Assembly: GCA_003223115.1 (NCBI GenBank)
Contig: QHXW01000006.1
Coordinates: 1 to 33,075, forward strand
DNA: 33,075 nt
Direction: 5' to 3'
DNA from: Acidobacteriota bacterium
Lineage (GTDB): Bacteria > Acidobacteriota > Terriglobia > Bryobacterales > Bryobacteraceae
A program made the position numbers and the translations under genes. The notes beneath the pieces are model-generated. The model was not told where the DNA came from. It worked only from the letters and a program-made list of their open reading frames with translations, and did not search any database. Shown piece by piece: positions 22,522 through 32,740 of the stretch (positions are counted from its first letter, which is position 1; every line of letters begins with the position of its first letter).

Positions 22522-24840
22522 TCAACTTCTCATCCTCAACAGCAGCCACATGCCCGCCAGCCCGAATAGCACGTCGGGTGACCATGCCGCGAGGCTTGGT
22601 GGCAGCTCGTTCGCGTTGCCGATCTGCTCGAACAGCTGGCCCACGCCCCAGTACGCCATCGCGATCCCGATGCTCACGCCGATACCGGCCATTGCGCCGC
22701 GATTCCCCACCAAAAATCCGAATGGGACCGAGAGCATGGCCATGATGAGCGCAAATAGCGGCACGGAAAACTTTTTATAAAGCTGCACGCGCAGCCGCAC
22801 CGTGTCAAAACCACTCTGCTGCAGGTCGTGAATGTACGACTCGAGCTGCTGGAAATTCATCTGCTTGTCTTGCTTCAGCTCTTTCAGGAAGTAATCCGGT
22901 GGCTCGTCCAACTCCGGAAACGTCATCACCTGGAAACGGTGGAACTCGCCCCGAACTTCACGTTCCCAGCCATTTTGAAAAATCCAGGTCTTCAGCGTGG
23001 GCTGCCATTGCGCGCGCTCGGCTGAGATTTGACGCCGCAGCTCGAACACCTTGGGATTGAGTTCGTACACGTTCACGCCGCCCATGACGTTTTGCTGGTT
23101 GTCGAAATACTTGTAGTACCAGATCCGCGACCCTTTACTACCCAAGATCCATTTGCGCTGCGGGTTCAGATAGGTTTGGACGGGGCGACCCTTGATTTCG
23201 TTGCGCAGCGCGTCCTGTTTGCGGTTGGCATCGGGAACGTAGAAATGATCGAAAGCAAACAACCCGGCGCTGAAAAACAACGCCACCGCCAGCACCGGTG
23301 CGGCCAGTCGGTGCAAGCTCACGCCACATGCCTTGAATGCCGTCACTTCATTGTGTTTGGTAAGCACGCCGAAGGTCACCAGAACGGCGACCAGCACGCT
23401 CACCGGCAGAGTATCGTAGACCAGCTTCGGGATCAGGAAGAATAGATAGAGGAAGACTCGCGACATGGCGATGTGATTCCGCACGATATCGCCCATCAAC
23501 GCAAAAAAATTATAGACCTCCGTCATCATCACGAAGCTGGCCAATAACACCACGAAATAGAACAGGAAGCTGGTGAGGATATAGGTGTCCAGTAACTGGG
23601 GAACTAGCGGCAGCCAGCGGGTTCTTCGGCGTTCGCCCTCGGCGAAGTCGGGCGCTACAAGCCGGGGACGTAATCGATGAAATCCCGCGCTGAACCAGCC
23701 GCGCAGCGTGCCCACCACGTCGCGATCTCCGGGCTGCTCCAGACGCGCGATCAACAAAAGGCCCGCCAGCATGAATACCGCGTTCGGTGTCCAGATCGCG
23801 GCCTCGACTGGCATTACATGCTGTTTTGCCACTCCGATCAGCGTGATGAACGCCAGGTGATAACAGAAGAACGCCAAAAACAGCGCGGTCACGTAACCAG
23901 CCGATTTTCCACCCTTGCGCGAGGATACGCCCAACGGAATGCCCACCAGAGCCAGCATGATGCAGGCCAGCGGCAAGGCCATTCTTTGATGGAGCTCGAT
24001 GCGCGCTTCTACCCAATCCGGCCCGGTGCGCGAATAGCGCTTCAATTCGCCCGTATTCATTTCACTGAACGCCCGGGCACGGACCTGGGCCGGCGGCGCC
24101 GCTTCCAGTATCTGCTCTCCCCGGTAAGAGCTGTCATCAGCCACGCCGTCTTTGTCCACCTCGTGCGTGCTGGCTTCGCGAAGTGAAAGTTGAATGCGGC
24201 TGTGGGGCACATCCGGAATCGCGATGGCCTCTCGCGCCACCGTGATCCGCGGCCCGTCCGCCTTCTCGCCCAAGCCGATGCTGCGTTTTTCGGGAGGCGT
24301 GAGATCGGCCAGAAAAACATTTTTCCAGACCGCCAGTTGGCCCGGCTTCACGTCACCCACATAGAGAATGGTATTGGGGAATTGTTCTTCAAAAATCCGC
24401 GGCTGGATGTCGGCGGTCAACTGCTCGGCTTCGAGGGTGTTCAGAATCGCAATGCTCTGCCGGATGGCGCGCGGTGTGAGCCACAGTGAAGAGGCGCCGG
24501 CTACCAGCATCGCCAGAAACGCGAAGGTCAGCACCGGGGGGAGGACGGCGCGGCTTGAAACTCCCGCGGCCCGCATGGCCGTGATTTCGCCGTCGGTGGA
24601 CATCCGTCCCAGGCCGATCAGAATTCCCACCAGCACCCCGAAAGGCACGGTCAACGTCAGCACTGGGGGCAGCGCCAGCGCGAATAACCAGCCGACGGTC
24701 TCGAGTTTTGCCGAGCTCCGCACCAACAGCTCGAAGTACTTGTCCACACGCTGCAGGAAAAGGACGAAAGTCGCCAGCAACGTCCCCAACAGGGCGCTAG
24801 CGACAATCTCGCGAAAAACGTAGCGGCTGATGATCCGCAT
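22522..24840 (-). CDS. Fused LptF-LptG lipopolysaccharide export permease
   Basis: A 772-residue inner-membrane protein made of two YjgP/YjgQ-type permeases in tandem. The first half (from ISRYVFREIVASALLGTLLATF, with VGWLFALALPPVLTLTVPFG and LALVGIPLGVSSRKGGKSAGY) is LptF/G-like to about residue 360. A second complete unit starts at about 395 (LLDTYILTSFLFYFVVLLASF) and ends with MLSVPFGFLVGNRGAMAGIG. Each half has paired N- and C-terminal membrane segments around a periplasmic domain. In other bacteria LptF and LptG are separate and pair with the ATPase LptB to extract LPS. Here one chain supplies both. It follows the TldE-like gene by 30 bp. Confidence 0.9.
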   Translation of the reverse strand: MRIISRYVFREIVASALLGTLLATFVLFLQRVDKYFELLVRSSAKLETVGWLFALALPPVLTLTVPFGVLVGILIGLGRMSTDGEITAMRAAGVSSRAVLPPVLTFAFLAMLVAGASSLWLTPRAIRQSIAILNTLEAEQLTADIQPRIFEEQFPNTILYVGDVKPGQLAVWKNVFLADLTPPEKRSIGLGEKADGPRITVAREAIAIPDVPHSRIQLSLREASTHEVDKDGVADDSSYRGEQILEAAPPAQVRARAFSEMNTGELKRYSRTGPDWVEARIELHQRMALPLACIMLALVGIPLGVSSRKGGKSAGYVTALFLAFFCYHLAFITLIGVAKQHVMPVEAAIWTPNAVFMLAGLLLIARLEQPGDRDVVGTLRGWFSAGFHRLRPRLVAPDFAEGERRRTRWLPLVPQLLDTYILTSFLFYFVVLLASFVMMTEVYNFFALMGDIVRNHIAMSRVFLYLFFLIPKLVYDTLPVSVLVAVLVTFGVLTKHNEVTAFKACGVSLHRLAAPVLAVALFFSAGLFAFDHFYVPDANRKQDALRNEIKGRPVQTYLNPQRKWILGSKGSRIWYYKYFDNQQNVMGGVNVYELNPKVFELRRQISAERAQWQPTLKTWIFQNGWEREVRGEFHRFQVMTFPELDEPPDYFLKELKQDKQMNFQQLESYIHDLQQSGFDTVRLRVQLYKKFSVPLFALIMAMLSVPFGFLVGNRGAMAGIGVSIGIAMAYWGVGQLFEQIGNANELPPSLAAWSPDVLFGLAGMWLLLRMRS

Positions 24841-24870
24841 GTTCTGGGGTCAGGCCGTCAATTCGCGCAT

Positions 24871-26643
24871 TTATTCGATGGCGGTGAGCGAAGGCGGCGG
24901 GACTACCGGCAGCTTGGGTAGTTCTTCATCTAGTTTACGTATTTCGAGATCGTCCACCAAGATCGAAGGAGCGATTACCGAGGTTTCGGCCGCGTATTGG
25001 CCGGCTCCCATCACCGAGAACGGAGCGCCGTTCTCCAGATAATCAAATACCGTATTGTCGTTTCCGGCAGCACGGATATCGCGGAGCGAGCGTACAGTCA
25101 CCTCTCGAAATCGCACGCCGCGCACCAGCTCTTCTTTGCCGTCTGGATACACTTTATAGACAAGAATCGGCAGGCTCAGCGCGTGCGTGCCACCGCCTCC
25201 TTCGCGAGCATTAGTTGCCAAAAGGCGCCGCACTTCATCCAGCGGGGCTGTCGACGGAAAGTCCATTTTGCGAACGATGATGCCGTACTTCTGGTTGCGA
25301 GCCTGACAAACCTCGAGTAACTTCTTCCGCAGATCCGCCGGCGGGACGGTTTGGTTGGCGCGAACGATCAGGTTGCTGATGGCGGCGCTGGCTGCGCCAA
25401 ACCCGCCGGGAAGCCGGGCCCGGCCATTCGAGGCCTTGAAGTCGCCTACTGGCTGCCGAGTGAGCAGAAAATTTTTCAAGTCGCCCTTCTCGATCACTTG
25501 CAGCGGGCGCGGGATGACTCCTTCGAAATCCGCGTGATAGCTGCCGAACAAACGCCTGCCTTGCCATTCGCTTCGGGTAGGATCATCGGTGACGTCCATC
25601 CACTCCGGCAAAATCCTCGATCCCAGCCGGCCCTCGAGATCGCTCGTTCCAAACACATTGGGGTACCCCGGTTCGTTCACGGGCTTGCGGTGCAGTACCA
25701 GATTCTTACCCAACAACTGCGCAAACAACTGCGCGGCTGCTGCGCCTTCAAACAGCACTGGCCCGTTGTAGGTTTCACCCAGCGGCGCACGGCTGAGCGC
25801 GGTGACATTCTCGGCCACGCGGGTCAGTTCTCGCCGGAGGTCAGCCTCGCCGGGCAATCCGTTGAAATCGAGCGCATGAATCGCCACACCGTCATGCAAC
25901 TTCATCCCGTCTGCCGCCCGGGCAGTTGCGTTTACCCTGATGAAAATGACGGTATTTCCTGTTCGCACTTCCATGCCTTCCCAGTCAGCCAGGTAGCGCG
26001 CGTTTTTTATCGCCTGCAATTCAACCTGGGAACTCAAGACGTCCGGAAAATGCGTGAATATTGCGGAAAGCGAACGAAGGCGCTCAAGCCACTTTTCCCG
26101 ATCGTATTTGCCATTGGGAACATTTTCTATGAGATGCGTTGGCTCGACGTGCGAGAAGTCCGGCAGCTCCTCGCTCGACGCGACGTTCTTCAGCGCGGCG
26201 CGCTTGCGGGAAATAGCTTCCACCGCGGTCTTGTACGCTTGATCGGTCGCCAGCCAGAAATAGCGGCGCAATACGGCATAGTTGCTGTCGAACGGGAAAC
26301 GGTCGATATCGTAGCGGCTGCCCCGGTTCACGCCGCTTCCCACGTAATTGGTGTTGTCGAATTGATAGCTCCCGACATGCACCTGGATTCTCGGCACGCT
26401 GAAGCGGTTGGACGCCTGTGTGACGATGCCGCCCAGGCTGGCGGAAGCGCCAAAAATCTCGCCCTCCTCGACCTGGTACCCGACGTAGTACGGTTTTTCC
26501 AGCTCGACCTTTTCCAAGCCGCGGGAGTGCTCGAGTTCATCCCGCATGGCCTTCAGCATGGGATCGTCATGTACCGGGTTCTGTGCCTGAACCGCAACCG
26601 TGAGGCCCGCAACCAGGCAAACGCCTGAAATCCGGCGGATCAC
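24871..26643 (-). CDS. Secreted TldE/PmbA-like protein lacking the zinc motif
   Basis: A 590-residue exported member of the TldD/PmbA family. A signal peptide (GVCLVAGLTVAVQAQ) leads into the N-terminal domain; the C-terminal domain includes GPVLFEGAAAAQLFAQLLGK, NEPGYPNVFGTSD and RARLPGGFGAASAAISNL. Where the TldD partner has HEIFGH, this protein reads AQLFAQLLGK, so it cannot bind zinc in the same way and is probably the non-catalytic subunit, as TldE/PmbA is to TldD in E. coli. Start ATG overlaps the TldD stop by 4 bp (ATGA), supporting a heteromeric pair. Unlike E. coli TldE it has a signal peptide. Confidence 0.85.
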   Translation of the reverse strand: MIRRISGVCLVAGLTVAVQAQNPVHDDPMLKAMRDELEHSRGLEKVELEKPYYVGYQVEEGEIFGASASLGGIVTQASNRFSVPRIQVHVGSYQFDNTNYVGSGVNRGSRYDIDRFPFDSNYAVLRRYFWLATDQAYKTAVEAISRKRAALKNVASSEELPDFSHVEPTHLIENVPNGKYDREKWLERLRSLSAIFTHFPDVLSSQVELQAIKNARYLADWEGMEVRTGNTVIFIRVNATARAADGMKLHDGVAIHALDFNGLPGEADLRRELTRVAENVTALSRAPLGETYNGPVLFEGAAAAQLFAQLLGKNLVLHRKPVNEPGYPNVFGTSDLEGRLGSRILPEWMDVTDDPTRSEWQGRRLFGSYHADFEGVIPRPLQVIEKGDLKNFLLTRQPVGDFKASNGRARLPGGFGAASAAISNLIVRANQTVPPADLRKKLLEVCQARNQKYGIIVRKMDFPSTAPLDEVRRLLATNAREGGGGTHALSLPILVYKVYPDGKEELVRGVRFREVTVRSLRDIRAAGNDNTVFDYLENGAPFSVMGAGQYAAETSVIAPSILVDDLEIRKLDEELPKLPVVPPPSLTAIE

Positions 26644-28313
26644 CGGGGATCCCTCAGTTCCTTCGGAAAGGGCATGAGCGGCGGGCGATCCTGGGACTTT
26701 TGCTTCTTTTCGATCTCGATCTCCGACACCAGGATGGCCGGAGAGACGGCCGATACCGGCACATTGCCGGACTCAGCTCCGCAATAGCCGTTGAATACCT
26801 CCGCCTTGTCCGACGTGGCCACGATCTTGGCGAAGCAGGCCAGTGGAGTGCCCACGATGTCGGCGCCGCGCACCAGTTCATCAGGACGCCCATCCGGATA
26901 GAGACGGTACACAACGACCGGCATCACTTTGAAAGCCTGCGGGCCGGCCCGTGCTGTCGTCGTGAAGCCGCCGGTCACATCCGCGAACAGCAAGCCATAA
27001 GGTTTGTTCTGCTTCTTGACTTCATCAAGGAGCATCTGGCGCAGCCGTGCCTCGGGTACCGCCCGTGAAGACTCGACGATGAGATTCGATTGCCGCGAGA
27101 CCACTTCGTAGCCGGGGTCGCGCCTGCCGTGCCCGTTCGACTGGCTGAAACCCTTTACAGGGGAGCGCGACATCAGGAAGGCTTTCAGCACGCCGTTTTC
27201 AACCGCGGCCAAGCGACGCGCCGGAATCCCCTCGTCGTCATACGTGTACCAGCCGTTGAGATCCGCTCCTGCCGCCTTGCGCAGCGTGGGATCGAAGCTC
27301 ACGGAAAGAAAATCCGGCAGCACCTTTTCGCCAATCCTGGCGGTGAAGGTTTGTCCCTCCGTTTCATCTTTCTGCCGGTGGCCTTCGATGCGATGCCCGA
27401 AGATCTCGTGAAAGAAAACACCGGCGGCGCGACCTGAAAAAATAGCCGGCCCCAGAAAGGGCTCGACCACCGGCGCCTTCAGAAGCGCCGTCAAATTGCG
27501 CGCGACCTGCTCGATCCCCGCCTGAATCGCGGCATCGTTCGGCAGCCCTGAAGGCTCGGCGGCGTCAAACGTGGCTGAGGTTCCCAGATTCATGCCGTCT
27601 TCGGCCCTTGCCTGCGCCGAGATCACAACCCGCAGGAAGTTTCGGCCGTGCTCTACCCTGCTGCCCTCGGTATTCACGAAATAGCGATTATCGGCCTGCG
27701 CGATCAGGGATACGTTCGACGTCAGGATGTCCGGATAGCGGCCGAACCCAAGAGACAGATTGCGCAACCGTTCACTCCAGCTTCCCTCCGAGAGTTCGAG
27801 GCGAGCCGGAGCTTCGATATGGACCGACGGCTCTTCGGTTGAAAAATCATCCGAGGGATCCTGGGCCGCAACCTGCACCTGCGTGTTGGTGCGGATGCGG
27901 ATGAGTCTTTCGGCCGCTGCCCGGTAAGCGGTGTCGGTCTCGGCCCATACGCGGCGCTGGATCGAATCCGAGGCATCGTCGAGACTCAATGGCGCGCCAG
28001 AAGTAACGCGAGCGGACTCCCGGGTGCGGTGATAATTATCCAGCTGCGGGGTACCGACGCGCAACGTCACGTCCAGATAACGGCGCCGCCCCGTATTCAC
28101 CGAATTCAGTGCGCCCAGGGTTGCGCCGAGCGCGTGATAGTCCTGGTCCGTGATTTCGTAGGCGATAAAGTATGGCGGCGGGTCGGCTTTCTGCTTAAGA
28201 ATCTGGAAATTACGCTGAAGTTCCTCCTGAAGCGCGTTCAGAAGGGCCGAAGATTGGGCGAAGGTGGCCCCAACAAAAGAAAAAAGAAGAGCCGCCCGAA
28301 GCAGAATGTTCAC
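26640..28313 (-). CDS. Secreted TldD-like zinc metalloprotease
   Basis: About 557 residues. A signal peptide (NILLRAALLFSFVGATFAQ) is followed by the TldD N-terminal domain. The catalytic segment GVFFHEIFGHRIEGHRQKDE matches the HE(x)3-4GH zinc motif of TldD proteases. Downstream WYTYDDEGIPARRLAAVENG and SNGHGRRDPGYEVVSRQSNL are also conserved. TldD/TldE pairs process peptides such as microcin B17 and degrade unfolded peptides in a chamber between the subunits; here both subunits appear exported, so the substrate is periplasmic. GTG at 28313 is preferred since it starts the signal peptide; an ATG at 28340 would add nine residues before it. First gene of the tldD-tldE-lptFG operon. Confidence 0.87.
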   Translation of the reverse strand: MNILLRAALLFSFVGATFAQSSALLNALQEELQRNFQILKQKADPPPYFIAYEITDQDYHALGATLGALNSVNTGRRRYLDVTLRVGTPQLDNYHRTRESARVTSGAPLSLDDASDSIQRRVWAETDTAYRAAAERLIRIRTNTQVQVAAQDPSDDFSTEEPSVHIEAPARLELSEGSWSERLRNLSLGFGRYPDILTSNVSLIAQADNRYFVNTEGSRVEHGRNFLRVVISAQARAEDGMNLGTSATFDAAEPSGLPNDAAIQAGIEQVARNLTALLKAPVVEPFLGPAIFSGRAAGVFFHEIFGHRIEGHRQKDETEGQTFTARIGEKVLPDFLSVSFDPTLRKAAGADLNGWYTYDDEGIPARRLAAVENGVLKAFLMSRSPVKGFSQSNGHGRRDPGYEVVSRQSNLIVESSRAVPEARLRQMLLDEVKKQNKPYGLLFADVTGGFTTTARAGPQAFKVMPVVVYRLYPDGRPDELVRGADIVGTPLACFAKIVATSDKAEVFNGYCGAESGNVPVSAVSPAILVSEIEIEKKQKSQDRPPLMPFPKELRDPR

Positions 28314-29552: not shown

Positions 29553-29643
29553 CGAAGTGGACCATGCATTTCCTGGGTGTGTGATGAACCGGCCACACCC
29601 GGCCGGCGCCGAACCTCGCAACCTCAGTTGTTATCATGTTCGT

Positions 29644-29928
29644 TTGCTTGAACTGGATGCAACCAACGCCACTGATTATTTGCGCTCTCGCGGGATGGAT
29701 TACGCCGCCACGCGCATTTCGGAGCTGGGCGGCGGTGTCTCAAACACGGTTCTGCTGGTGGAAACAGCCGGCCGCCGGTTTCTGCTGAAGCAATCGCTAG
29801 GCAAACTGAGTGTGAAAGCTGACTGGTTTTCCGACCGCCAGCGTATTTTCAGGGAATCCGCCGCCTTGAGCTGGGCGGCCCAATACCTGCTCCCGGAAGC
29901 GTTCCCGAAATCCTCTTCGAAGACCCTG
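29644..29928 (+). pseudogene. Phosphotransferase (APH/choline-kinase fold), piece A: N-terminus
   Basis: The N-lobe of an APH-type small-molecule kinase: LELDATNATDYLRSRGMDYA, GGGVSNTVLLVETAGRRFLL and KQSLGKLSVKADWFSDRQRI, where GGGVSNTV is the nucleotide loop and the Lys of LLKQ the ATP-binding Lys. A one-base loss near 29905-29908 shifts the frame, so the end reads EILFEDP only in the second frame. The expected next part (piece B) is not adjacent; it lies inverted at 30226-30545. The start is probably TTG 29644. Substrate unknown. Confidence 0.7.
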
Positions 29929-29929
29929 G

Positions 29930-30180
29930 AGTCCCAAGAATTTCTTAATCAGCGCGGGGAGCGTCATGGCCATCGATTTCGAAGTCGCGCACTTCGGCGA
30001 CCCGTCATTCGATTCCGCCTTCCTGCTGAACCATCTGTTGCTGAAATCCTTTCACAGCCCGCAGTGGATGGACCAATATGCTCTTGCGGCGCTCATTTTT
30101 TGGGAGAGTTTCCGCTCCGGGCTGCCAGCCGAGTGCACTGGATGGAGCAAGCCACGCTGCAGCACCTGGGCTGCCTGCTG
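29930..30180 (+). pseudogene. Phosphotransferase, piece C: catalytic/metal loop and following helices
   Basis: Reads SPKNFLISAGSVMAIDFEVA, then HFGDPSFDSAFLLNHLLLKS, the APH segment that follows the HGD catalytic motif and holds the metal-binding Asp (IDFE). Its natural upstream neighbour, ending VHGDC, is piece B. Near 30122-30140 one base appears lost, after which the frame gives WMEQATLQHLGCLL. The continuation (LARVDGKSPAEYV) is found inverted just downstream as piece D. Confidence 0.7.
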
Positions 30181-30228
30181 AATCTGTCACGTACTCTGCG
30201 GGTGACTTGCCATCCACACGAGCCAGCA
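30181..30228 (-). pseudogene. Phosphotransferase, piece D, inverted
   Basis: On the minus strand this 48-nt piece reads LARVDGKSPAEYVTD, which continues piece C (GCLL) but in opposite orientation. The joins on both sides fall at CTG/CTGCTG repeats, so a few bases of microhomology are present at the breakpoints. Confidence 0.6.
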
Positions 30229-30545
30229 GTCGCCGTGCACCAGGCTCACGCGCCGTGCGCCGGAATCGCGCATCAGGCGGTCGAAGTACGGTTTCACTTC
30301 GAGATGCCGGGCGGCTGTGGTGCGGTAATACGGGTCGATGCGAAGCTGGTCAAATACGGATTGATCTCCAAAAACGCGCTCGGATTCCGGGTCGCGCCAG
30401 CTCGCTCGAACAATCGCTGCCAGCATCCGGCCGATCGTGGCCGCGACCGTGCGATCCACCTCGCCGAGCATCAGCAGCGATTTCCAGTCTTGAGCACCGG
30501 GCGGCGCGGCCGTCATGGCAAACAGCCAATTCTCCTGACAGACCA
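30226..30545 (-). pseudogene. Phosphotransferase, piece B: hinge and catalytic HGD, inverted
   Basis: Minus strand reads [20 protein letters not shown], then the helical region with LRIDPYYRTTAARHLEVKPY, and ends ARRVSLVHGDC, the Brenner-type catalytic motif of APH kinases. It fits exactly between piece A (EILFEDP) and piece C (SPKNFL), yet lies downstream of C and on the other strand. Its upstream edge joins directly to the middle of enolase (VNILSGG). Confidence 0.72.
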
Positions 30546-31001
30546 CCCGACAGAATGTTCACCATCGGGACAGGCAATGCCGCGCGCCGGTCTTCGGCAA
30601 AGTAGCGCCAAAGAGCAATGCCCCGTGAGTTCGCCACAGCGCGCGCCACGGCACAGGACACGCCCAGAATGGCATTCGCGCCCAACCGCGATTTATTGCT
30701 TGTTCCGTCGAGCTCAATCATGCGCTGGTCTATGGCTCGCTGGTCCTCGGCATCGCGGCCGCGCAAATCCGGCGCTAGCACGCGCAGGACGTTCTCTACG
30801 GCTTTCCGCACGCCTTTGCCCGCGTAACGCGTATCGCCGTCCCGCAGCTCGACGGCTTCGTGTTTGCCGGTAGAAGCTCCTGACGGCACCTTTGCCGATC
30901 CTGTTGCGGACCCGGAAAGGTCGACCTCCACCATCACAGTGGGGGTTGCCGCGGGAATCGAGAACCTCGATCCCGCGAATATCGCGGATGATCAAACTCA
31001 T
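30541..31001 (-). pseudogene. eno: Enolase, N-terminal piece with a frameshift
   Basis: Enolase converts 2-phosphoglycerate to phosphoenolpyruvate. The ATG at 31001 starts [20 protein letters not shown]. An extra base in the G5 run at 30941-30945 (plus strand) then shifts the frame, after which [40 protein letters not shown] and [17 protein letters not shown] follow, including the mobile SGASTG loop. It stops at VNILSGG and runs straight into phosphotransferase piece B. The rest of the protein (HAGR...) lies upstream at 31105-31837, so the two halves are in swapped order. Confidence 0.88.
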
Positions 31002-31104
31002 ATTGCGGCGCTTCGCATATTCGCGAATACTTCAGCCACACTCGAGGGCGGGTGCACCATGATGGCCCCGGCAAAGCCGATCACGCGATCCCGCAGCGCC
31101 GCGC
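30998..31104 (-). pseudogene. Phosphotransferase, piece E: probable C-terminus, overlapping the enolase ATG
   Basis: Minus strand reads AALRDRVIGFAGAIMVHPPS and then SVAEVFANMRSAAI with its stop TGA sharing bases with the enolase ATG (ATGA). I assign it to the phosphotransferase because piece D ends AEYVTD and lacks its tail, and because the stop-start coupling suggests a phosphotransferase-enolase operon. The assignment rests on order and style, not on a recognised motif. Confidence 0.45.
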
Positions 31105-31837
31105 TAAACGTTCAGAGCGGGTGACGGAGCCGACCTTGATCTGGCCCGCGCCCGATGCGACCGCCAGATCAGACAGGAAATCGTCTTCAGTTTCGCCGGA
31201 CCGGGCCGAGATCACCGCGCGGAAACCTGCTTCGCGCGCCCTGTCGATCACTTGAAACGTTTCTGTCAAAGTGCCGATCTGGTTCATCTTTACCAGGACT
31301 GCATTGGCCGCGCGTTGGCGAATGCCGCGTTCGAGCCGCGCCGGGTTCGTGACAAACAGGTCGTCGCCGACGAGCTGGATCTTACTGCCCAGCTGCTCTG
31401 TCAACGCTTGCCAACCCGGCCAGTCGTCTTCCGCCAGGCCGTCCTCAATTGAGATCACCGGGTAATGATTCACCCACGCTGCAAGTATTCCGATCATCTC
31501 ATTCGAGGTGAGCGAGCGGCCTTCAGAGGCAAGCTCGTATTTTCCGTCAGTGAAGAAATGCGACGCCGCCACGTCAATTGCGATAGCGATGTGGCGGCCA
31601 GGACGGTAGCCCGATTGTTCGATGGCCGCCGTCATCACATCTAACGCGGTTTCATTGCGCGGCAGCCGCGGCCCCCAGCCGCCTTCATCGGCGGCTCCTG
31701 TGATCATGTACCCGCGCTCAACTAACACTGCGCGTGCCGAGCGATGCACGGCGACGATGGCTTCAAGGGCTTCGGCGAATGTAGGAAACCCTAGCGGGAT
31801 CGCCAGAAAATCCTGAAATTCAAAATGACGGCCCGCG
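31105..31837 (-). pseudogene. eno: Enolase, C-terminal piece
   Basis: Reads HAGRHFEFQDFLAIPLGFPT, then ADEGGWGPRLPRNE (catalytic Glu), VISIEDGLAEDDWPGW and VGDDLFVTNPARL (metal ligands), VLVKMNQIGTLTET (catalytic Lys) and ISARSGETEDDFLSDLAV. It continues exactly from VNILSGG of the other piece. It breaks off after VGSVTRSERLA, where piece E begins, so the last 15-20 residues of enolase are missing from the window. Its upstream edge joins an ADOP permease fragment of opposite orientation. All catalytic residues exist, but as arranged no functional enolase could be made. Confidence 0.9.
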
Positions 31838-32740
31838 TGTGGGTCTGTTGGTAGCGGACTGGACCATGTCGGGATTGCTGGCGGCGTTGCCAGAGGACAC
31901 AAACGGCGGATGGCTTTCCGCCACGATCGATCCTCGCGTGCTTCTATTTTTCCTGGCTCTTTCTCTGGTGACAGGGATCTTGTTCGGCTTCGTTCCGGCG
32001 ATCCAGGCAACGCGCCCCGATGTGCTGCCGGCGCTCAAGGACCACCCGGGCAGCCGTGAGGCATCCGGCGGACAGGCACGGATACGAAGGGTATTTGTCG
32101 CCGGCCAGGTTGCTCTTTCACTGATGCTGCTGGTGGGTGCGGCGCTATTCACCAGCAGTCTCATCAATCTGGCAAGCCAGAGTCGGGGCTTCCACACCGA
32201 ACAGGTGCTGGAGTTTTCCATCGACCCGCGTTTGAACGGATACGACAACGCTCGCGGGTTCAGTTTGTTCCACGATCTGCAACAGCGCCTGGCCCTGCTG
32301 CCGGGTATACGATCGGTGGGCGCTGCAAACCTCGGGCCGTTTGGAGCGGCGACCGTAGTGGCGGCATTACAGTCGAAGGGTATCGCGCCAAAGAAGACGA
32401 GGGAAGTGCGAGCCCAGGAAGATGCGGTCAGCTCCGCCTATTTTCGAACATTGAAGATTCCGCTGATCGCCGGCCGCGATTTCAGCGACCGTGACGACGC
32501 CGGCGCCACCAAAGTGATCCTGGTGAATCAGACTTTCGTCAAACGTTATGTGCCCGACGGAAGCCCTATCGGCAAGCACGTGGCATTCGGCAACGGCAAC
32601 GTTCCACTGGATCGCCAGATTATTGGCGTCGTGCGGGACAGCAAGTGCTCAAGCCTGCGCGAAGAACGCGCTCAACCATTTCTCTACATGCCTTACGCGC
32701 AGGATCGCTGGGGGGTTCGGTTCGGGAGTTTGCACTGCGC
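31838..32740 (+). pseudogene. ADOP-type ABC transporter permease, internal fragment (MacB/FtsX family)
   Basis: About 300 residues of the second half of an ADOP permease: GLLAALPEDTNGGWLSATID, the membrane segment LLFFLALSLVTGILFGFVPA, QATRPDVLPALKDH, then a second membrane segment VALSLMLLVGAALFTSSLIN and a MacB-like periplasmic domain (YFRTLKIPLIAGRDFSDRDD, VNQTFVKRYVPDGSPIGKH, IIGVVRDSKCSSLREERAQP). These inner-membrane proteins act in efflux or lipoprotein-type export. Both ends are missing: the start joins enolase and the end meets IS4 sequence. The frame stays open to the window end, but from about 32740 it is non-homologous. Confidence 0.8.

Follow-up and report, generated by a model that had tools for sequence, protein, structure and literature searches.

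This study points to an exported relative of the TldD/TldE peptidase in a 33,075-nucleotide stretch of DNA (the window) from an Acidobacteriota bacterium of the family Bryobacteraceae, within a group of soil bacteria (GCA_003223115.1, contig QHXW01000006.1, positions 1-33,075). Two overlapping minus-strand genes encode A, an active-type TldD-like metallopeptidase subunit of 557 aa (26640-28313), and B, a catalytically empty partner of 590 aa (24871-26643), and a fused LptF-LptG gene (lptFG) follows them. We put at about 60% the probability that A and B form a two-subunit zinc peptidase, exported through the general secretory (Sec) pathway, which trims unfolded peptides in the periplasm as a self-standing module. 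On balance, we also favour the view that the dead-subunit design of TldD/TldE was invented at least twice, in that a second Sec-exported lineage, with records from several phyla, evolved an inactive partner independently, became fused to it in some members, and brought this "pencil-sharpener" type of peptidase to the periplasm.

Fold and metal site of subunit A

Both proteins carry the C-terminal domain of PmbA/TldD (PF19289, cut-off 22 bits), with 101.9 bits for A and 64.3 bits for B, and by this domain they belong to the TldD/PmbA superfamily (PF19289/PF19290). The AlphaFold model of A, computed from an alignment of 16 proteins, reached a mean predicted local distance difference test (pLDDT) score of 84.6 and a predicted template modelling (pTM) score of 0.84. 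Its best match among solved structures is E. coli TldD (5nj5_A; Z 39.2, root-mean-square deviation 3.3, 446 residues aligned), covering residues 18-538 of the model, followed by TldE-type chains at Z 27-31 and then by an unrelated chain at Z 6.4. This predicted fold is shared with E. coli TldD/TldE (PmbA), the heterodimeric metalloprotease that processes microcin.

The motif HEIFGH lies at residues 302-307 of A (27393-27410, minus strand), as an earlier note made from the sequence alone had read it. H302, E303, G306, H307, and the distal C511 (26781-26783, minus strand) are invariant in the 16 aligned A proteins. According to the part of PMC5810440 available, the metal ligands of E. coli TldD are His262, His267, and Cys454, the last being the counterpart of C511, and Glu263 provides the carboxylate next to the ligand in the motif. 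The pattern HExx[GA]H was found in 110 of 110 A-type open reading frames (ORFs) and in 0 of 101 B-type ORFs, each scoring above 300 bits, where the counts are of loci and not of independent species. As in E. coli TldD/TldE, the HExxxH motif and the distal cysteine are thus present in one subunit only, and the dead partner is of the same family.

A is nevertheless not a canonical TldD. Unlike the E. coli protein, it falls far under the cut-offs of the NCBIfam TldD equivalog models (42.5 versus 513 bits for NF008006; 84.5 versus 635 bits for NF040952).

Subunit B and the descent of the pair

In the alignment of A and B, the residues A308, Q309, and K313 of B occupy the places of H302, E303, and H307, and the segment AQLFAQLLGK (25705-25734, minus strand) stands at the position of the metal motif, in agreement with the earlier note. 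A, rather than TldE, is the closer relative of B. In trees that included canonical TldD and TldE sequences of this phylum and of E. coli, exported A and B together formed one side of a branch with a support of 100 in the first tree and 100/100 in a more careful tree, which was built from 36 of the 85 rows without the three longest branches (cD_L196, xA_L062, and xB_L060). A tree constrained to group A with TldD and B with TldE, that is, to a single origin of the dead subunit, was 169.7 log units worse and was rejected by the approximately unbiased (AU) test (p = 2.3e-7); the grouping for this test was chosen after the first tree had been seen, and the long branches of that tree call for caution. 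Because A and B group together, separately from TldD and TldE, and the single origin is rejected, B is not TldE. The earlier description of a TldD/TldE-like pair accordingly holds for the design and fails for the descent of B, which differs in this from the E. coli system.

The favoured tree requires two changes of state wherever the root is placed, and we consider it likelier that the site was lost twice than that the same HExxxH...C site was gained twice. The pairing of an active with a dead subunit therefore probably arose twice, as judged from the trees. TldE is assumed in PMC5810440 (in the part available) to be a copy of TldD that lost its site, and B would be a second, independent case of a TldD-family copy losing its site.

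Pairing, fusions, and distribution

In our survey of 199 Acidobacteriota genomes, A was found in 29 and B in all 29, and the two genes were adjacent in 28. A second collection consisted of the best 80 of at least 560 relatives found in a genome scan (the named records); here, B was next to A in 74, fused with it in 2, cut off by the contig end in 2, and absent despite room in 2. The two collections may overlap, near-copies occur (e.g., G094 and G163), and the counts throughout are of loci or genomes rather than of independent events. By title, 54 of these 80 records are Acidobacteriota, and the other titles include Planctomycetota, Verrucomicrobiota, Elusimicrobiota, WOR-3, Gemmatimonadota, Cloacimonadota, and one Alphaproteobacteria, although titles of records from metagenome-assembled genomes may be wrong. 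The phyla named are diderm. The A gene is broken in the assembly in at least two loci (L061 and L114).

Within the family of the window, B directly follows A in 52 of the 56 B rows among the matches listed; the other four are G215 and G243, which have no A row, and G232 and G251, in which A is on another contig. One further family genome (G237) gave a partial match only. Among 42 family-type loci used for a test of neighbouring genes, in which a gene was counted where room allowed, B was present in 39 of 40, the exception being L122.

Natural fusions also occur. A and B are encoded as a single polypeptide in eight cases, one of which is L156 (Acidobacteria by title). The other seven come from the phylum of the Gemmatimonadetes record G298, in which 13 of 298 genomes are carriers; one of the seven is partial, and the remaining six carriers have A and B as adjacent genes. 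The five fusions with a readable start have one signal-like N-terminus each, as judged by eye. One fusion modelled as a single chain gave a pTM of 0.75 over 1136 residues with a pLDDT of 75.5, which, as far as a model can tell, seems to exceed the expectation for two halves without a fixed arrangement. In a MAFFT alignment of the fusions made without A rows, the B rows fell on the second half; when A rows were included, they fell on the first half.

Predicted export of both subunits

The earlier note had assigned signal peptides to both proteins, and our data agree with this. A simple rule (charge, nine hydrophobic residues, and a cleavage-like end) predicted signal-like N-termini in 96 of 107 members of the A family and 88 of 99 members of the B family; applied 200 residues further in as a control, it was satisfied by 1 of 109 and 0 of 101, respectively. 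In the window, the predicted Sec signal peptide of A spans approximately residues 1-20 (28254-28313, minus strand) and that of B approximately residues 1-20 (26584-26643, minus strand), the end being inferred in both cases. The mean pLDDT in this part of the A model is low (57 for residues 1-10 and 47 for residues 11-20). By this rule-based prediction, A and B differ from E. coli TldD/TldE, which processes microcin B17 in the cytoplasm (PMC5810440, in the part available). Taken together, the signals, the conserved metal ligands, the steady pairing, and the natural fusions support the active/inactive exported pair that had been proposed.

The same rule was satisfied by 0 of 5 canonical TldE and 7 of 18 canonical TldD proteins, and the latter result led us to a second kind of putatively exported TldD. 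Of the canonical-clade TldDs whose N-terminus could be read, 9 of 17 have a twin-arginine motif, as against 0 of 4 canonical TldEs, so an exported TldD would not be unique to the A/B locus. In the genome of the window itself, L066:76-3032 (G000:C425) encodes a TldD of the canonical clade that has a twin-arginine motif, next to a TldE whose frame leaves no room for a signal. From its sequence, this pair is likely exported by the twin-arginine translocation (Tat) system. By analogy, the TldD would be exported folded with its partner riding along, since the Tat system is described as carrying some heterodimers in this manner (PMC10924467, in the part available). Such pairs, which occur in Acidobacteriota, resemble A/B in that these bacteria probably export the TldD; they are unlike A/B in that the TldD is of the canonical clade and the signal is on the active subunit only, whereas A and B mostly have a signal each. 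In addition, a loose twin-arginine pattern was found in 7 of 107 A and 13 of 99 B proteins, four of the latter being near the consensus, and the export route of the pair may accordingly vary. Four Acidobacteriota genomes (G022, G035, G006, and G010) have 4-7 matches each to the TldD/PmbA N-terminal domain, which points to several canonical pairs, partly with Tat-like signals.

Proposed function and alternative explanations

We propose that A and B would be secreted through Sec, each by its own predicted signal peptide, and that, once in the periplasm, they would assemble into a hollow zinc peptidase of two subunits with the architecture of TldD/TldE. A would hold the metal by H302, H307, and C511 and supply the catalytic E303, and B, having lost the metal and catalytic residues, would close the shell. 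Unfolded peptides or protein N-termini would be threaded in and trimmed, so that the pair might serve as a self-standing peptide-clearing module of the envelope in several phyla.

Several observations weigh against this proposal. No match to the N-terminal domain PF01523 was obtained in A or B up to an E-value of 0.1; the N-terminal domain of A seems to be kept all the same, because the model of A aligns to TldD from residue 18. In E. coli TldD, Lys456 ties a clamp to Glu270/Asp272 (PMC5810440, in the part available); the place of Lys456 is Ala in 108 of 108 matched A proteins, and that of Asp272 is His or Gln in 103 of 109. Among the 29 canonical rows, the search pattern matched 13 at the Lys456 place, all of them Lys, and 9 at the Asp272 place, all of them Asp. 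This replacement, which sets A apart from the E. coli enzyme, appears to be a signature of the exported lineage; it means that the bracing of the site differs and that activity is not to be taken for granted. Regarding the pairing, A and B lie inside two different contigs in G051 and on separate contigs in G232 and G251, and L122 and L157 have A with room for B and no B beside it. Finally, the fold search with the fusion model returned matches to the first half only, among the matches listed.

The best of the alternatives, which we still regard as unlikely, is that A/B is an exported peptide-maturation protease acting on secreted modified peptides, whose leaders it would remove in the way that TldD/E processes microcin B17. 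The function described for TldD/E (PMC5810440, in the part available) and the shared predicted fold speak for it. Against it, neither the clustering of flanking ORFs (at least 80 aa) nor a Pfam scan covering 20 genes that flank A/B in loci lacking lptFG revealed a shared precursor-peptide or modification gene beside A/B. Besides A-B and lptFG, no family occurred in more than eight loci without lptFG, except for an antisense ORF over A. Two clusters reached eight loci, one lying 3-4 kb and the other 4-6 kb downstream. The scanned genes were mixed, each in at most two records, and included glutamyl-tRNA synthetase, phosphoglucose isomerase, a periplasmic binding protein, a cation efflux protein, and pyruvate dehydrogenase E1.

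The next alternative arises from the third gene. Its 772 aa product (22522-24840, minus strand) exceeds the cut-offs of both equivalog models, TIGR04407 at residues 3-366 (335.7 bits, cut-off 230) and TIGR04408 at residues 417-769 (327.8 bits, cut-off 240), which bears out its reading as a fusion of LptF and LptG, the inner-membrane parts of the lipopolysaccharide (LPS) exporter. Unlike separate LptF and LptG, both are in one chain here, as is usual in Acidobacteriota: an ORF of at least 740 aa was found in 146 of 148 genomes among the matches listed (199 searched), and in 116 listed genomes one match spans both halves. On the strength of this neighbour, the earlier note had tied the pair to outer-membrane assembly; A/B would then be a dedicated protease maturing or clearing a component of the LPS transport bridge.

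This idea draws on the gene order in the family of the window. Full-length A is present in 89 of 101 family genomes, and in 77 of these 89, lptFG follows 1.6-2.1 kb downstream in the same orientation; in the window, the gap between B and lptFG is 30 nt. Among the family-type loci, lptFG was counted in 34 of 37 (31 of 34 without the four loci that had been added for having lptFG), and the order A-B-lptFG is thus held together in most of the family. Other flanking genes are less well kept: a ParA/CpaE-like gene upstream in 20 of 37, enolase in 10 of 35, and the next genes downstream of the window's lptFG in 0 of 35, 0 of 33, 0 of 33, and 0 of 32. Moreover, three of the nine family genomes without A and B at the searched similarity (G203, G208, and G269) also gave no lptFG match, two of the three being less than 85% complete.

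The association is mainly confined to this family, however. Of the 29 carriers in the phylum survey, two (G000 and G187) have lptFG beside A-B, and both belong to the window's family; lptFG itself was matched in 194 of 199 genomes against 29 for A. All named-record loci with lptFG are Acidobacteriota by title, one of them being titled Acidobacteriaceae (L137) and most of the others giving no family, and lptFG did not stand beside A-B in any locus whose title names another phylum. The other six family genomes without A and B keep lptFG (G206, G212, G281, and G291, and in part G248 and G277). Two other genomes of the window's genus were searched. In G291, lptFG is intact and 77% identical, and no A or B was detectable beside it or in the genome at the searched similarity. 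In G232, a draft assembly in 780 pieces, A, B, and lptFG are spread over three contigs (C61, C50, and C70; L254, L255, and L256) with flanks that exclude adjacency among them; this genome offers a natural test of whether the three need each other. A and lptFG are also apart in family genomes with few contigs (among them G261, G296, and G297), and the genes adjoining lptFG vary in six genomes where it is apart from A-B.

Since A/B has been lost or dispersed while lptFG was kept, these data speak against a necessary role in LPS export, and a dedicated one is not supported; we regard the outer-membrane assembly protease as improbable. What remains of the earlier proposal is the conservation of the order in the window's family, which was not found elsewhere in the phylum survey and is not kept throughout the genus. 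Where adjacent in this family, A-B and lptFG are probably co-transcribed, which suggests that expression of A/B is tied to envelope building without making A/B part of LPS export.

That A acts alone as a homodimer, with B as a regulator or scaffold, is similarly improbable: an active Sulfolobus TldD homodimer (cited in the part of PMC5810440 available), the A genes of L122 and L157 with no B next to them, and the solitary A-like gene of G033 are outweighed by the 29 of 29 co-occurrence in the phylum and the eight natural fusions, which indicate a fixed 1:1 partner.

If the preferred reading of A/B as a periplasmic two-subunit peptidase holds, an exported lineage of its own, whose partner lost the active site independently, would provide a second natural comparison for understanding why the enzyme needs a dead half. 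The natural fusions are useful here, as they offer a single polypeptide that could be purified with fixed stoichiometry. The pair also points to hidden peptide processing in the periplasm of several little-studied phyla.

Other features of the locus and related systems

The three ORFs lie on the minus strand where they had been placed. The start codon of A is GTG at 28313, and B also starts with GTG; the overlap between the stop of A and the start of B (26640-26643, minus strand) is therefore GTGA, not the ATGA given before. The promoter scan found no promoter-like site on the minus strand and 2 sites in total, against 2.0 in shuffled sequences, and terminator-like sites numbered 12 against 6.9 in shuffles (standard deviation 2.5).

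In G033, a divergent A-like protein (L062:8268-9917) is 33% identical to A, has no rule-based signal and no B beside it, and was left out of the 29 carriers of A.

Among the matches listed, we recognised no exported TldD/E pair or LptF-LptG fusion in Acidobacteriota in the open-licence literature. TldD/E is described as common in prokaryotes with a general role that is unknown (PMC5810440, in the part available), and an operon of two TldD proteins with a MoxR ATPase is reported from Stenotrophomonas (PMC7688217, in the part available). In E. coli (L205:3584-9001), tldD is preceded, in the same orientation, by yhdP, a gene for phospholipid transport in the envelope.

Elsewhere in the window (29600-32010), an enolase gene is in two pieces with their order swapped, and pieces of a kinase gene lie on both strands. 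The same genome also has an intact enolase (G000:C517), and the split copy may reflect an assembly error or a real rearrangement.

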